A stretch of 64,000 nt of DNA from positions 1 through 64,000 of the forward strand of contig JAFDVU010000004.1 in the NCBI GenBank assembly GCA_018268835.1, read 5' to 3'. Under the pieces are notes generated by a model. It worked only from the letters and a program-made list of their open reading frames with translations. It did no database searches and was not told the origin of the DNA. Below are positions 4,015 through 10,757 of the stretch, piece after piece. The position numbers were made by a program, and so were the translations under genes. The stretch is from Acidobacteriota bacterium (lineage in GTDB: Bacteria; Acidobacteriota; Terriglobia; Bryobacterales; Bryobacteraceae). Numbering within the stretch: the stretch's first letter is position 1; each line of letters starts with the position of its first letter.

Positions 4015-4773
4015 ATGCTGATCCGCCGCCTGCAATGCGAACAACTGGAAGTCGCCGTGTACGAGACTCGCGCCGATGCCGGCGCCGCCAGCGCCGCGCG
4101 CTTCGCCGACCGGGTGAACCGCGTCCTTCGCGAGCACGGCCAAGCGTCCGTGGTTTTCGCCTCCGCGCCATCACAGAACGAAATCACCGCCGCGCTGCGG
4201 AATGTCGATATCGACTGGCCGCGCGTGACCGCGTTCCACCTCGATGAGTACGTCGGCCTGCCCGCCGACCACCCCGCCAGCTTCCGCCGGTACATCCGCG
4301 AGCACCTGCTGGACCACGTCCCCGTGGGCGCTTTCCACGGGCTGCGCGGCGAAGCTCCGGACCCCGAAGCTGAAGCCGCCCGCTACGCCGCGCTGCTCGC
4401 CGAAGCCCGCCCTTCCGTGGTGGTTCTCGGCATCGGGGAGAACGGGCACCTCGCTTTTATCGATCCGCCCGCGGATTTCCAGGAACCACGCGACGTGAAG
4501 GTCGTCGATCTCGACCCGGTTTGCCGCATGCAGCAGGTGCACGACGGCTGCTTCGCGTCGATCGACCTCGTGCCCACCCGCGCGCTCTCGCTCACGGTGC
4601 CCTTTTTCATGCGCACGCCGCACGTGGTCATCACGGTGCCCGGTCCCACCAAGCGCGCGGCCATGCGCGCCGCGATTCAAGGGCCCGTCACGGAACAGTG
4701 CCCCGCGTCGATCCTGCGCCGCCACCCCGACGCGGCTCTCGCCTGCGATCAGGAGGCCGCCCAATGGATCTGA
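4015..4773 (+). CDS. nagB: Glucosamine-6-phosphate deaminase / 6-phosphogluconolactonase family protein
   Basis: This 252-residue protein has the NagB/RpiA/CoA-transferase-like fold of glucosamine-6-phosphate deaminases. The motifs FHLDEYVGL (residues ~76-84) and VLGIGENGHLAFIDPP are the deaminase active-site blocks, and the VPGPTKRAAM segment is also typical. It would convert glucosamine-6-phosphate to fructose-6-phosphate plus ammonia in the cytoplasm. The NagB paralogues common in this phylum can differ in substrate, so the exact reaction is inferred. Its last 10 bases overlap the next gene, whose AGGAGG ribosome binding site lies inside this one, implying translational coupling. Confidence 0.8.
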   Translation: MLIRRLQCEQLEVAVYETRADAGAASAARFADRVNRVLREHGQASVVFASAPSQNEITAALRNVDIDWPRVTAFHLDEYVGLPADHPASFRRYIREHLLDHVPVGAFHGLRGEAPDPEAEAARYAALLAEARPSVVVLGIGENGHLAFIDPPADFQEPRDVKVVDLDPVCRMQQVHDGCFASIDLVPTRALSLTVPFFMRTPHVVITVPGPTKRAAMRAAIQGPVTEQCPASILRRHPDAALACDQEAAQWI

Positions 4774-5486
4774 TTCTCAGCGCCGCGCAGCACCTGGTCG
4801 ACGCGCGCCGCGCGCACCGCCGCGGACCGCGCATCCCGGAAGCCTGCCGGCCGCGCGACATCGCCACCGCTCTGGCAATCCAGCGGCGCGTCACCGAACT
4901 GCTCGGCGAACCCGTCGGTGGATGGAAAGCCTCCGCGCCGACCCCGGAGAAGACGCTGCTCGCGCCGATCTACGCCCCGGCGATCCACCGCGGTCCGCGC
5001 TGCCCGGTCATGCCTCGGGACGGCATGGCACCGATCGAACCGGAGATCGCCTTCGTGCTCGCGCGCGACCTGCGTCCGGGCGCGTCCGAAGAAGAGATGC
5101 TGGACGCAATCGGAGAGGTGCGGCTGGTGCTGGAGTTGATCGGCAGCCGCTATGAAGCGCCGCGTGAGGCGACATTTCCCGAGATGCTGGCCGACGGATT
5201 GAACGACCAGGGCCTGCTGGCCGGGCCAGTGTCCGCGCACCCGATCGGTGACTGGATGCGCGCGTTCCCGATCAGCATCCCCGGCATCTTCGAAGGCGAA
5301 GGGCGGCACCCCGACGGCCACCCGCTCATGCCCTTCAAGTGGCTCGCTTCGATGGTTCCGCTCGCCGCGGGGCAAATCGTCACGACCGGTTCCTACGCAG
5401 GAGTGATCGATGTTCCGCTCGACCTACCGCTGCGGGTGATCTTCGGCACCGCCGGCGAAATCGCCGTCACGTTTTACAGCGAGTAG
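4764..5486 (+). CDS. 2-keto-4-pentenoate hydratase / fumarylacetoacetate hydrolase-family protein
   Basis: This 240-residue protein belongs to the MhpD/HpcG-like branch of the fumarylacetoacetase superfamily. Visible blocks are GGWKASAPTPEK near residue 53, IEPEIAFVLARDL with the metal-binding acidic residues, and LVLELIGSRY. Such enzymes hydrate 2-oxo-4-enoates or decarboxylate related 2-oxo acids with Mg or Mn. A strong AGGAGG at 4751 sets the ATG at 4764, overlapping the nagB-like gene by 10 bases. The pairing with a sugar-phosphate deaminase is unusual, and its physiological substrate is not evident. Confidence 0.75.
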   Translation: MDLILSAAQHLVDARRAHRRGPRIPEACRPRDIATALAIQRRVTELLGEPVGGWKASAPTPEKTLLAPIYAPAIHRGPRCPVMPRDGMAPIEPEIAFVLARDLRPGASEEEMLDAIGEVRLVLELIGSRYEAPREATFPEMLADGLNDQGLLAGPVSAHPIGDWMRAFPISIPGIFEGEGRHPDGHPLMPFKWLASMVPLAAGQIVTTGSYAGVIDVPLDLPLRVIFGTAGEIAVTFYSE

Positions 5487-5512: not shown

Positions 5513-6607
5513 CTACGCCTTCTTATCCGGATTCGGCAGCATGATGTCGCGGATCATGGCGCACAGGTCTGCCACCGCGGCGCTGAACTGCCTCAGGGTG
5601 CGCACCGTGCACGGGTAGCTGTCGAACTCGTCCACCGTCAGACCGTCCTGATCGTACGCGCGCCGGAAGTCCGCGAACTTGCGGTACAACTCGGCGACGA
5701 TCCTGTCGTCCACCGGCGTATCGATGCGGTTCACCACCGCGACATCGCTGGCGTTATACCGCTTCTGCCACGAGCACGGCGGCGAGATGACCACGTCCCC
5801 GCCGATGAATTCGCTCCAGTGCATGTGATTGCGGAACGCCGCCGAAAGCAGTCGCAGCCGGTACCCGCGCTCGCGGAACAGCGCGTAGGTCTTCTTGAAG
5901 ACGGCGACGCCGGCCCACTCCAGGTAGCCCGGATCGAGCGTGATGACGTCCCTCTCCGCCTGCACCTTCAGCCAGTCGTCGAGGCGCCCCACCATGAGGG
6001 TGCATACCGGGCCCATGTGCGAAATGTCCTTGCCCTCCGCCTCGCGGCGCTTCAACCCGCGCTCCACGGCCTCGGCGACCGCCACCGCCTGCGGCAGCGT
6101 GAACGAGACTGTCGCGTTGACGCTGACCCCGCGATACGTGGCCTCCTCGAACGCCGGAATTCCCGCGCGCGTCACCGGAATCTTCACGATCATGTTCGGG
6201 GCCAGGGAGTGGAAGTGCATCACCTGGTCGAGAATCCCCTGCGTGCTGCGGTACAGGCGCGGATCCGTCTGGATCGAAAGCCGCCCGTTCTTTCCCTGGT
6301 GCGCTTCGAAGATCGGCTCCAGCAACTTCGCGCCCTTGATCGAAATCTCCTCCACCACGCGCCACGCGATCTGATCTTCGGTCGCTTCCGGCATTTCGCG
6401 GATCAGTTCGTGAATGCGGTCCTTCCACGCCGCCAACTCTTTCTGCAGCACCCCGACCACGATCACCGGGTTGCACGTCGCGCCCACCGCGCCGTGCGAG
6501 ATCGAATACTCCAACTCCGAAATACTCGCCGAATCGTTCCACAAACACGTCGGCGTGGTCTGCGTCATCTGATGCAGCGGGCTTTTGTAAGATTGCGCCA
6601 TAGCCAT
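5513..6607 (-). CDS. tal: Transaldolase family protein in inositol operon
   Basis: This 364-residue protein has the TalB/TalC-type (beta/alpha)8 fold. TCNPVIV near residue 44, the Schiff-base Lys block NMIVKIPVTRAGIPAF (Lys about 142) and GVSVNATVSFTL are canonical transaldolase motifs. Length is nearer the ~370-residue actinobacterial type than the ~215-residue TalC. The ATG at 6607 lies 2 bases after the mmsA stop and about 10 bases after GAGGA; ATG 6628 would overlap mmsA. As last gene of iolB-iolD-mmsA it may act on 2-deoxy-5-keto-gluconate (see findings). An ordinary pentose-phosphate role is the alternative. Confidence 0.85.
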   Translation of the reverse strand: MAMAQSYKSPLHQMTQTTPTCLWNDSASISELEYSISHGAVGATCNPVIVVGVLQKELAAWKDRIHELIREMPEATEDQIAWRVVEEISIKGAKLLEPIFEAHQGKNGRLSIQTDPRLYRSTQGILDQVMHFHSLAPNMIVKIPVTRAGIPAFEEATYRGVSVNATVSFTLPQAVAVAEAVERGLKRREAEGKDISHMGPVCTLMVGRLDDWLKVQAERDVITLDPGYLEWAGVAVFKKTYALFRERGYRLRLLSAAFRNHMHWSEFIGGDVVISPPCSWQKRYNASDVAVVNRIDTPVDDRIVAELYRKFADFRRAYDQDGLTVDEFDSYPCTVRTLRQFSAAVADLCAMIRDIMLPNPDKKA

Positions 6608-6609
6608 TT

Positions 6610-8064
6610 CTAAAATTTCCTCGACCATTCCCTGGGCCAGCGTTCGATAACCACCTTCTTGTCCGTGTAAAACTCGACTCCGTCCCTGCCCTGTCCGTGC
6701 AGCACGCCGAGGAAGCTATCCTTCCAGCCGCTGAACGGGAAGTATGCCATGGGCGCCGCGATCCCGATGTTCACCCCAATGTTTCCGGCGGGCGCTTCGT
6801 AGCGGAACTTGCGCGCCGTTGCGCCGCTCGCCGTGAAGATCGACGCCGCGTTGCCGTAGGCGCTGCCGGACAGGATGTCGATCGCCTCGTCCACGCTCTC
6901 TGCGTGCACCAGGCTCAGCACGGGGCCGAAAATCTCGGTCTCGGAAAGCGCGCTCTTCGGGTCCACGCCGTCCAGGACCGTCGGGCTCACGAAATATCCG
7001 CCGCCGCCGGCCGCGCCGCCGGCGATCACTTTGGCGCCTTCGCGCGCGCCTTTCGCGATCAACCCCTCGATCCGTTCCTGGCTCTGGCGGCTGATCACCG
7101 GACCCATCTGCACGCCTTCCTGCAAGCCCGGCCCCACTTTGAGGGACGCCGCCGCGCCGGCCAGCGCATCGCGGAACTGCGTACGCGCGTCACCCACGGT
7201 CACCGCCACCGATACCGCGAGGCAGCGCTGTCCGGCGCAACCGAACGCGCTGTCGGTCACGATGCGGGTGGTGGTCTCCAGGTCGGCGTCGGGCATGATG
7301 ACCGCGTGATTCTTCGCGCCGCCCTGGCACTGCACGCGTTTTCCGTTGGCCGACCCGCGCGAGTAGATGTAGCGGGCGACCGGCGTGGATCCCACGAAGC
7401 TGATCGCGCGCACCGCGGGATGATCCAGCAGCGCGTCCACCGCCGCCTTCCCGCCATTCACCATGTTGACCACGCCTTTGGGAATTCCCGTCTGCCCGAT
7501 CAACTCGCAGATCATCCGCATCGCCATCGGCACGCGCTCGGAAGGCTTCAGGACGAACGTGTTCCCGCAGGCAATCGCGTAGGGCAGGAACCACATCGGC
7601 ACCATGGCCGGAAAGTTGAACGGGGTGATGGCCGCGACCACACCGAGCGGCTGGCGGATCATGATCTCATCGATACCGCGCGCCACGTCCTCCAGGTTGT
7701 AGCCCTGCATGAGGGTGGGGATGCCGCAGGCGACCTCGACGTTCTCCACCGCGCGCTGCAACTCCGCGCGCGCTTCGGCGAAGGTCTTGCCGTTTTCGCG
7801 CGTGATGCAGCGCGCGATGTCGTCGTAGTGCTCCTCCATCAGGCGCTTCAGCCGGAAGAGGTACTGGATGCGGTCCTGCGGAGGGGTTCTCCGCCACTCC
7901 GGAAACGCCGCCGCGGCGGCGTCCACCGCCGCGGCCACTTCCGCCGCGCCGCCCATCGGGGTCTCGGCGAAGGTCTCGCCCGTCGCCGGATCGATCACCG
8001 CGGCGGCTTCGCCTGCGTTGGCCGTGCGCCACTCGCCGGCAATGTAGTCTGGAATCCGATTCAC
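6610..8064 (-). CDS. mmsA: (Methyl)malonate-semialdehyde dehydrogenase, CoA-acylating
   Basis: This 484-residue aldehyde dehydrogenase is of the MmsA/IolA type. The catalytic Cys is C281 in [25 protein letters not shown] has Asn where ordinary aldehyde dehydrogenases carry the general-base Glu, a hallmark of the CoA-dependent branch. [14 protein letters not shown] and [10 protein letters not shown] complete the NAD-binding signature. It oxidises malonate semialdehyde to acetyl-CoA, CO2 and NADH in inositol catabolism, or methylmalonate semialdehyde in valine catabolism. It lies 13 bases downstream of iolD and 2 bases upstream of the transaldolase, so the inositol role (IolA) is preferred. Confidence 0.92.
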
Positions 8065-8077
8065 GTTGCCTCCGCTC

Positions 8078-9940
8078 TTAAAGGAACAGCCGTTCGGCTT
8101 TCACGGCCTTCTCGTATTTCTCGCGCGCCGCCCGCACCGAATCCATCTCGGATACCTCGGCGACGGGCACGTCCCACCAGGATTCGTACCCTGGCACACG
8201 GATCTCTTTGGCCACTTCGGTTACGATCACCGTGGTGCGGTTCTCGCCCTTCGCCCGCGCCAGGGCCGCTTCCAGTTCCTTGCGGTTGCGGACGCGGACT
8301 GTGACCGCGCCGAAACTCGCCGCGTTCTTTTCGAAGTCCACGGGCACGTACTCGCCGCTGAGTTCGCCGTTGGCGCCGCGCACCTTGTAGTCCGTGCCGA
8401 AGCCCTGGCAGCCGACCGCTTGCGAAAGCCCGCCGATGCTGCTGAACCCGTGATTATCCAGCACCACGATGTTGAGCTTGAGCCCTTCCTGAATCGAGGT
8501 CGCGATCTCCGAACTCATCATCTGGTAGGATCCGTCGCCCACCATCACGTACACCTCGCGCGACGGATCCGCCATCTTCACGCCCAGCCCGCCGGCGATT
8601 TCGTAGCCCATCGTGGAGTAGCCGTACTCCATGTGATAGCCCTTGGGATCCCGAGTCCGCCACATCTTGTGGATGTCGCCGGGCAGGCTGCCGGCCGCGT
8701 TCAGGATCACGTCCTTCGGACCCATGGCGCGCTCCATCACGCCCACCACTTCGCTCTGCACCATGCTGCCGTCGCAAGAGAGCGCGTGCAACCGGTCCAC
8801 TTCGGCTTCCCAGCGCGCGCGGTGCGCGGCCACGCAGGTGGCGTACTCCGGCGGCACATGATAATCGCCCACCGCGGCGGCGAGTTCCTCCAGGCCCACG
8901 CGCGCGTCGCCGGTCAGCGGGATGCCCGAGTGCTTGTAGGCATCCATCTCGAACACGTTCAGGTTGATGAAGCGCACGTTGGGATTCTGGAACGCGGTCT
9001 TCGACGCGGTGGTGAAGTCGCTGTACCGCGTGCCCACGCCGATGACCAGGTCCGCCTCGCGCGCCATGAGGTTGGCGCCCGGGGTGCCGGTCACTCCCAT
9101 GGCGCCCAACTGCTGGGGATGATCGTACGGCAGCGATCCCTTGCCCGCCTGCGTCTCGGTCACGGCGATGCCGGTCTGCGCGGCGAACCGTGCCAGCGCC
9201 TGGTACGCTTCCGAATACTGCACGCCTCCGCCGGCAATGATCAAGGGCGTCTTGGCCGAGCGGATCCACCCGGCCGCCCGCTGGAGCAGCGCGCGGTCCG
9301 CGAGCGTGCGCGGAATGGTCCACACGCGCTTTTCGAACAGGGCCGCGGGATACTCGCAGGCTTCCGTCTGCACGTCCTGCGGCATGGCCAGCGTCACGCA
9401 CCCGGTGTTGGCGGGCGACGTGAGCACGCGCATCGCCTCCACGAGCGAATGCGGCAACTGGTCCGCGCGGTTGATCCGGTCCCAGTAGCGGGACACCGGC
9501 TTGAACACGTCGTTCACCGCGATGTCCTGCGTGTGCTCGCTTTCCAGTTGCTGCAGCACGGGCGCCACGTTGCGCCGCGCGAATATGTCGCCCGGCATCA
9601 ACAGGAGCGGGATGCGGTTGATGGTGGCGCACGCGGCGCCGGTCACCATGTTGGTGGCGCCGGGCCCGATGGAGGTCGTGCACACCAGCGTCTGCAACCG
9701 GTTCTTCATCTTGCCGTAGGCGATCGCGGTGTGCGTCATCGCCTGTTCGTTGCGGCACAGGTAGTAGCGCAGGCCGCTCTGCTGGCGTAGCGCCTGCCCG
9801 ATCCCGGCTACATTGCCGTGACCGAAAATTCCCCACACGCCGGCGAAGAACTGCGTCTCCTGCCCGTCACGTTCCACAAATTGATTCTTCAAGAAGGCCA
9901 CGGCGGCCTGCGACATGGTAAGCCGGATTGTTTTGGACAT
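8078..9940 (-). CDS. iolD: 3D-(3,5/4)-trihydroxycyclohexane-1,2-dione hydrolase
   Basis: This 620-residue ThDP enzyme opens the ring of trihydroxycyclohexane-1,2-dione to 5-deoxy-glucuronate. The start [17 protein letters not shown], then [21 protein letters not shown], matches the IolD N-terminal pyrimidine-binding domain. The ThDP/Mg motif is [11 protein letters not shown] through [11 protein letters not shown] near residue 500. The ATG at 9940 was chosen because homologues begin with this segment; an upstream extension would run into iolB. Only 4 bases separate it from the iolB stop, indicating co-transcription. Confidence 0.94.
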
Positions 9941-9944
9941 AAAA

Positions 9945-10757
9945 TTACGATGCGCGCACCACGGGAACACGGGGATCCTGCTCGCGCCATTCCGCGCGCA
10001 CCCACGCGTAATCGGGATCGTCGCTGGCCGCCATGGAGCGCGCACTTCCGGCCAGCGCGTTTAAGTAGTATACGTTGTATCCGTGCGCCGCCACCACCGG
10101 GTGGTAGCCTTCCGGGATCAGCACCACCTGGTTATCGCGCACCGTCAAAGTCTCATCCAGACCGCGGTCGTGCGTATACACACGTTGAATGGCGTATCCC
10201 TCGGGCTTATCGATCTTGTAGTAGTAGATCTCTTCCAGATCCACCTCGGCCGGCGGGCGGTGCTGATCGTGCTTGTGTGGCGGATAGCTGCTCCAGTTGC
10301 CGCTAGGCGTGTACACTTCCACCAGCAGCAGGCGGTGCGCGGGAAACGCCGGCATCACCAGGTGGTTGATCTGCCGCGTGGCGTTGCCCCCGCCGCGGAT
10401 TTCGATGTGCACCTCTTCGGGCGTCACCAGTCGCGCGGCGTGCTTCTCCTCCGCGCGGCAGTAGCACAGCGCCACGTCGCACCCGCTCTCCGCGGTCAAG
10501 GTGAACTCCGTCGCGACCGGCAGGTAGAGCGTGTAGGCCACGCCGTCGAACACATTTTTCCGCCGTCCGATCGCGTCCCAGTTACCGGCGCTCGACCGCA
10601 CCGAGCACACCCCGCCCAGTACCACGATCCCCAACTCGCGCGCGCCGGTGGCGGCTTCGATCCGTTCTCCCGGTTTTAGCTGTCTCGCGTCGATTCCCAG
10701 ATACTCAAACCCCGCTTCGGCGGGCTCAAATGAAGGCTTGCGAATCAGATTGTTCAA
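9945..10757 (-). CDS. iolB: 5-deoxy-glucuronate isomerase
   Basis: This ~270-residue cupin-type isomerase converts 5-deoxy-D-glucuronate to 2-deoxy-5-keto-D-gluconate. Diagnostic blocks are NWSSYPPHKHD with metal-binding His, DLEEIYYYKIDKPEGYAIQRVYT and VLIPEGYHPVVAAHGYNVYYLN. The protein should start NNLIRKPSF, so I place a TTG start at 10757, about 8 bases after AGGTGA. The open frame extends to TTG 10796, but that codon forms part of a TTGACA box. First gene of the iolB-iolD-mmsA-tal operon. Confidence 0.92.
   Translation of the reverse strand: MNNLIRKPSFEPAEAGFEYLGIDARQLKPGERIEAATGARELGIVVLGGVCSVRSSAGNWDAIGRRKNVFDGVAYTLYLPVATEFTLTAESGCDVALCYCRAEEKHAARLVTPEEVHIEIRGGGNATRQINHLVMPAFPAHRLLLVEVYTPSGNWSSYPPHKHDQHRPPAEVDLEEIYYYKIDKPEGYAIQRVYTHDRGLDETLTVRDNQVVLIPEGYHPVVAAHGYNVYYLNALAGSARSMAASDDPDYAWVRAEWREQDPRVPVVRAS

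Follow-up and report, generated by a model that had tools for sequence, protein, structure and literature searches.

A transaldolase-family gene of acidobacterial inositol operons that may take the place of IolC and IolJ

The gene content of many soil bacteria, most of them Acidobacteriota, suggests that they break down inositol by way of a specialised transaldolase that would cleave the last sugar-acid intermediate of the pathway, 2-deoxy-5-keto-gluconate (DKG). The gene in question, tal, is the last of an inositol operon in the window analysed here, a stretch of 64,000 nucleotides (positions 1 to 64,000 of contig JAFDVU010000004.1) from a member of the Bryobacteraceae (assembly GCA_018268835.1). 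Its product, Tal, probably acts on unphosphorylated DKG and so replaces both the kinase IolC and the aldolase IolJ, and the gene evidence that it would do so is strong. Inositol is an abundant carbon source in soil, much of it derived from plant phytate, and the Acidobacteriota rank among the most common bacteria there. The original prediction described the four genes of the operon as contiguous, with spacers of 4, 13 and 2 bases, and this arrangement held when coordinates and spacing were re-checked:

9945..10757, minus strand: iolB, 5-deoxy-glucuronate isomerase, with DKG as product (TIGR04378, 352.4 bits, cut-off 205; TTG start).
8078..9940, minus strand: iolD, trihydroxycyclohexane-1,2-dione hydrolase (TIGR04377, 901.5 bits, cut-off 715; 4-base gap after iolB).
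6610..8064, minus strand: mmsA/iolA, coenzyme A (CoA)-acylating (methyl)malonate-semialdehyde dehydrogenase (TIGR01722, 550.8 bits, cut-off 448.5; GTG start; 13-base gap after iolD).
5513..6607, minus strand: tal, member of an inositol-associated subfamily of the transaldolase family, with unphosphorylated DKG as its proposed substrate (PF00923, Pfam TAL_FSA, 122.5 bits, cut-off 27; 2-base gap after mmsA).

The canonical myo-inositol pathway, as in Bacillus subtilis, runs IolG-E-D-B-C-J-A. All 367 contigs of the source genome (7.46 Mb, 99.99% complete) were searched for its members. IolB is single-copy, the operon copy being the only one, and the genes iolE and iolG, for which the original prediction had proposed a genome-wide search, lie together on another contig (C52; L153:7122-9061), away from the window operon and overlapping by 1 base. 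IolG scored 467 bits against TIGR04380 (cut-off 355); IolE found its best match in TIGR04379 at 181 bits, below the cut-off of 290, and the one other IolE from a tal cluster that was scanned in full (L088) likewise fell under its curated cut-off. Both proteins are 72–74% identical to their counterparts in other tal clusters (IolE 74%). The genome thus shares IolG, IolE, IolD, IolB and IolA with the canonical pathway, and all of these except IolE pass curated cut-offs. The canonical pathway then continues with the IolC kinase and the IolJ or DUF2090 aldolase, whereas here a transaldolase-family gene stands in the cluster and neither of the two was recognised. The absence of IolC and IolJ from the operon, which had been predicted, extends to the whole genome: no IolC rose above the cut-off of 300 bits, the best of 13 PfkB-type matches reaching 127.7 bits; the DUF2090 aldolase domain had no match; and the sole class II aldolase (PF01116) passes the fructose-bisphosphate (FBP) aldolase equivalog TIGR01521. 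An IolC elsewhere in this genome is thereby ruled out, and the reservation that IolC and IolJ might lie on other contigs can be dropped. Read from its genes, the genome is predicted to cover every step that leads from inositol to DKG as well as the conversion of malonate semialdehyde; for the two intervening steps, tal is the only candidate recognised. Another replacement of IolJ has been proposed from gap analysis of inositol clusters, namely the DUF2090 domain of IolC-DUF2090 fusions (Price et al. 2022, PMC9007349); in that variant, however, DKG is still phosphorylated, whereas here there is neither IolC nor DUF2090.

These same matches supply the material for an explanation by an ordinary transaldolase: Tal would belong to the pentose phosphate pathway and be carried along in the iol operon to balance carbon flow when the cells grow on inositol, while DKG would be handled by one of the 13 PfkB-type proteins acting as an unrecognised kinase and by the single class II FBP aldolase, which might accept DKG-phosphate. 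Its bearing can be judged from the company that tal keeps in other genomes. Orthologues of tal are spread over hundreds of genomes. We scanned one genome per species from 84,980 species, at least 555 stretches of which encode relatives of Tal, and took the best 80 further; a separate sample of 247 genomes of the phylum yielded 5 further tal orthologues with 59–71% identity. In the resulting neighbourhood set of 85 tal loci, whose flanks are often cut by contig ends, iolB, iolD or iolE was present in the flanks of 55 loci, and in 25 of the 33 loci that retain at least 7 kb on both sides. Counted singly, iolB occurred at 47 loci, iolD at 45, iolE and iolG at 43 each, a LacI regulator at 41 and mmsA at 20. 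At 33 loci tal shares its strand with iolB, iolD, iolE, iolG or mmsA at a distance of no more than 250 bp, and at 27 it is divergent from iolB, iolD, iolE or a LacI regulator within 700 bp. Three loci from records named Chloroflexi (L088, L096 and L104) have the order mmsA-tal-iolD-iolB on one strand, and in records named Bacteroidia or Bacteroidales tal accompanies iolB and iolD (L100) or mmsA and iolE (L102). The association of tal with iol genes is far beyond chance and spans several phyla, so that the comparison of homologous neighbourhoods suggested in the original prediction came out in its favour. With checked IolC sequences as queries, IolC was found at none of the 85 loci; that no IolC gene travels with the tal clusters argues against the ordinary-transaldolase explanation. 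On a Spirochaetales contig, a partial second copy of tal lies within a sugar ATP-binding cassette (ABC) transporter region (L072:5284-5673).

The distribution of tal and IolC among whole genomes points the same way. In the 247 phylum genomes, IolB was above its cut-off in 10, tal orthologues were present in 6 and IolC was above its cut-off in 4. Five of the six tal genomes also have iolB (Fisher p = 2e-7, uncorrected for shared ancestry). Among genomes with both iolB and iolD, five have tal only, three have IolC only (one of them, G054, with a divergent IolD) and none has both (exclusion p = 0.018 on 8 genomes, uncorrected for ancestry), and this mutual exclusion is a further point against an ordinary transaldolase. 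Two genomes (G245 and G152) have an IolB match, neither tal nor IolC, and no strong IolD match; they are probably not inositol degraders of the tal or IolC type and were set aside from the test, which within iolB genomes is weaker when they are counted (p = 0.08). Two others of the sample (G024 and G050) have a strong IolD match, but no match to IolB, IolC or tal. Of 50 further genomes chosen for the presence of tal, 48 had no IolC above the cut-off and 2 had both.

Replacement of IolC and IolJ by tal, as originally predicted, is well supported and held in each of the genomic tests. The source genome, the clustering across phyla, the exclusion of IolC and the distinctness of Tal from its paralogues speak for it, and several findings weigh against it. 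The two genomes with both genes, Anaeromyxobacter oryzae and a deltaproteobacterial metagenome-assembled genome, hold tal alongside an IolC-DUF2090 fusion in a complete iol cluster; the fusion partner in A. oryzae was confirmed as a DUF2090-type aldolase by model NF047869. Because these two myxobacterial-type genomes keep tal with a complete IolC-DUF2090 system, tal is not always a replacement. In addition, the exclusion statistics draw on few genomes with no ancestry correction, and most of the genomes with tal come from metagenomes and are incompletely assembled. In A. oryzae (L186:1-19901), a tal of the iol-linked clade lies about 14 kb from the complete iol cluster, so that both routes seem to coexist, and its neighbours are two iolG-like genes and a sugar ABC transporter.

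Examination of the protein itself suggests that Tal is a distinct enzyme. Domain match, fold and Schiff-base lysine place the predicted protein in the transaldolase/FSA superfamily (PF00923). The AlphaFold2 model has a predicted local distance difference test (pLDDT) value of 92.4 and a predicted template modelling (pTM) score of 0.91, and its closest folds in the Protein Data Bank (PDB) are the Neisseria and Corynebacterium transaldolases, with template modelling (TM) scores of 0.79–0.82. This fold is what an ordinary transaldolase would show as well. The source genome, however, encodes two other TAL_FSA proteins, both with Glu96, Phe178 and Ser226 (numbering of Escherichia coli TalB), and Tal differs from them at all three sites. 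At least one more TAL_FSA protein was present in every tal genome tested, and the other transaldolases aligned from tal genomes, including the two of the source genome, have Glu96 and Phe178. The possibility that Tal is the only or housekeeping transaldolase of its genome is ruled out by the two others, and because these carry the standard Glu96 and Phe178, the tal copy is not the housekeeping enzyme. Taken with the distribution of IolC, these differences make the explanation by an ordinary transaldolase with an unrecognised kinase improbable.

The three substitutions, Glu96 to Gln, Phe178 to Met and Ser226 to Ala, were found in 50 of 50 aligned Tal orthologues, and the Schiff-base Lys132, Asn35, Ser94, Asn154, Thr156 and the anion-binding Arg181 and Arg228 are invariant in the same set. 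Compared with the transaldolases of E. coli (TalB), Neisseria and Corynebacterium, Tal has a common fold (TM 0.69–0.82) and keeps Lys132, Asn35, Asn154, Thr156, Arg181 and Arg228, but it carries Gln96, Met178 and Ala226 and is only about 20% identical. With these residues, and with scores under the cut-off of every NCBIfam transaldolase equivalog though above that of Pfam TAL_FSA, it falls outside the pentose-phosphate transaldolases (EC 2.2.1.2). It also differs from the fructose-6-phosphate aldolases, which are marked by Gln59 and Tyr131: Tal has the Gln, in common with E. coli FsaA at the Glu96 position, but FsaA has Tyr at 178, Lys at 228 and 220 residues, whereas Tal has Met, Arg and 364 residues. 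A paralogue group with about 30% identity to Tal (L029 and L030) also carries Gln, Met and Ala. One of these distant paralogues (L029:3916-10157; genome G062, contig C244) lies directly upstream of genes for putative subunits of a 2-oxoacid dehydrogenase complex, judged by the starts of their sequences only, and possibly belongs to another undescribed transaldolase pathway.

The chemistry of DKG is consistent with such a role. Transaldolases make or break a bond of 3S,4R configuration and transfer a dihydroxyacetone unit (PMC3962226). It had been proposed that DKG, when numbering starts at CH2OH, shares the C3/C4 configuration of fructose-6-phosphate. Derivation by Fischer projection agrees, giving a 2-ketose with the configuration of fructose at these carbons; worked out from the known structures, a CH2-COO- group follows beyond C4. 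Given this configuration and tail, cleavage of DKG would give a bound dihydroxyacetone unit and malonate semialdehyde, on which the neighbouring MmsA acts. In the proposed route, of which the operon would supply the lower half, family membership suggests that IolG, IolE, IolD and IolB would convert inositol to DKG, whose keto group would form a Schiff base with the conserved lysine of Tal. Tal would then cleave the C3-C4 bond and release malonate semialdehyde, which MmsA would oxidise to acetyl-CoA, and the enzyme-bound dihydroxyacetone unit would pass to glyceraldehyde-3-phosphate, the most likely acceptor, to give fructose-6-phosphate. The conserved arginines could serve to bind DKG by its carboxylate and the acceptor by its phosphate. 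Ser226, which is among the three phosphate ligands, is Ala in Tal, and this counts against the proposal.

A precedent exists in the breakdown of sulfoquinovose, where the sulfofructose transaldolase SqvA cleaves an unphosphorylated ketose and moves the dihydroxyacetone unit to glyceraldehyde-3-phosphate (PMC9594981). The logic proposed for Tal is the same as that of this pathway (SqvA/SftT; PDB 8bc3), in which a PF00923 enzyme acts on an unphosphorylated ketose with an acidic tail and a three-carbon aldehyde passes to a dehydrogenase. The sulfofructose transaldolases are nevertheless short (218–226 residues) and weakly similar to Tal (E about 1e-4), and Tal differs from them in its iol neighbourhood and in the carboxylate proposed as its substrate. 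No sulfoglycolysis genes were recognised among the recurrent neighbour clusters of tal, in which no search was aimed at them.

The fate of the dihydroxyacetone unit is less certain than the cleavage. Gln at the Glu96 position, invariant in the orthologues, is the state of FsaA, and a lyase that releases free dihydroxyacetone is therefore a serious alternative and the main rival to transfer. Such an enzyme of the fructose-6-phosphate aldolase type would split DKG into malonate semialdehyde and dihydroxyacetone, which a dihydroxyacetone kinase or glycerol kinase would then phosphorylate; IolC and IolJ would still be replaced, with the kinase step after cleavage rather than before. Engineered variants in the PDB, TalB E96Q/F178Y and Thermoplasma acidophilum E60Q/F132Y, carry changes at these two sites, the single change F178Y makes TalB 70-fold more active as an aldolase (PMC3962226), and the source genome encodes the dihydroxyacetone kinase Dak1. 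Tal has only half of the FsaA state, however, the second aldolase residue, Tyr at 178, being Met, and it keeps both anion-binding arginines where FsaA has Lys at 228. Of 28 tal genomes, 17 lack Dak1, and only one tal locus (L114) has it nearby. Its absence from these genomes favours transfer, although glycerol kinase could serve as an alternative phosphorylating enzyme. If Tal does act on unphosphorylated DKG, transfer is thus the fairly probable outcome, and release has a substantial if lesser chance. Transfer to glyceraldehyde-3-phosphate, as first predicted, remains the most likely course, with the lyase now a real alternative to it. Considered as a whole, a dedicated transaldolase that cleaves DKG, passes its dihydroxyacetone unit to glyceraldehyde-3-phosphate and replaces IolC and IolJ stands, on the genes, at a little under an even chance, and the lyase is a rather unlikely but weighty candidate.

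A further alternative concerns the substrate. Tal could act on another ketose, made from isomers of inositol or from a related sugar acid, its linkage to iol genes then reflecting a parallel branch. Three members of the iol-tal clade that lie in clusters without iol genes (L025:5543-10298, L092:5113-11092 and L042:8118-11077) are consistent with this and weigh against DKG as the general substrate. Their clusters hold a short-chain dehydrogenase/reductase (SDR) gene and, in some, genes for a zinc dehydrogenase, an M24 peptidase-like protein or an aldehyde dehydrogenase. One genome (G061) likewise has tal, but no IolB above the cut-off and no IolD. Because of these clusters and this genome, part of the Tal clade likely has a second substrate, and the two genomes with a complete IolC-DUF2090 system would also fit a parallel branch. 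In the Tal tree, iol and non-iol contexts interleave with at least 13 changes, some of which may come from truncated flanks or from iol genes dispersed over the genome, as they are in G175 and the window genome. On the other side, the clusters examined carry sets of iolB, iolD and iolE with no IolC to use up DKG, and tal is their recurrent extra catabolic gene, which makes a different ketose as the substrate quite improbable.

We consider it fairly likely that cleavage of unphosphorylated DKG by the Gln/Met/Ala subfamily of Tal, whether by transfer or by release, constitutes an undescribed, widespread form of inositol catabolism, present in Acidobacteriota and in some scattered members of other phyla, in which IolC and IolJ are replaced. 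The open-access literature, which does not take in most subscription journals, yielded no paper that connects a transaldolase with the breakdown of inositol. IolC was counted among the four core inositol genes in a survey of 193,757 genomes, the searched text of which has no mention of Acidobacteria (PMC9430895). Clusters free of IolC, such as the present one, could therefore have been undercounted or taken for incomplete. As a design the pathway is a variation on known kinds; what would be new is the enzyme subfamily and its activity. If the proposal is true, a new enzyme activity would close the gap that hundreds of genomes show in this pathway, and the transaldolase trick of sulfoquinovose breakdown would have a counterpart in another pathway.

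Scans for promoters and terminators at the operon gave no signal above chance, and a search of viral contigs gave no match. Convergent to tal, at 4015-5486 on the plus strand of the window, are a gene of the glucosamine-6-phosphate isomerase/6-phosphogluconolactonase family and a 2-keto-4-pentenoate hydratase-like reading frame, which were not seen among the genes that recur beside tal in other clusters of this kind. An acidobacterial genome is suggested by a Solibacter-type C-terminal domain encoded next to the operon and by the best relatives of tal, most of which are acidobacterial.

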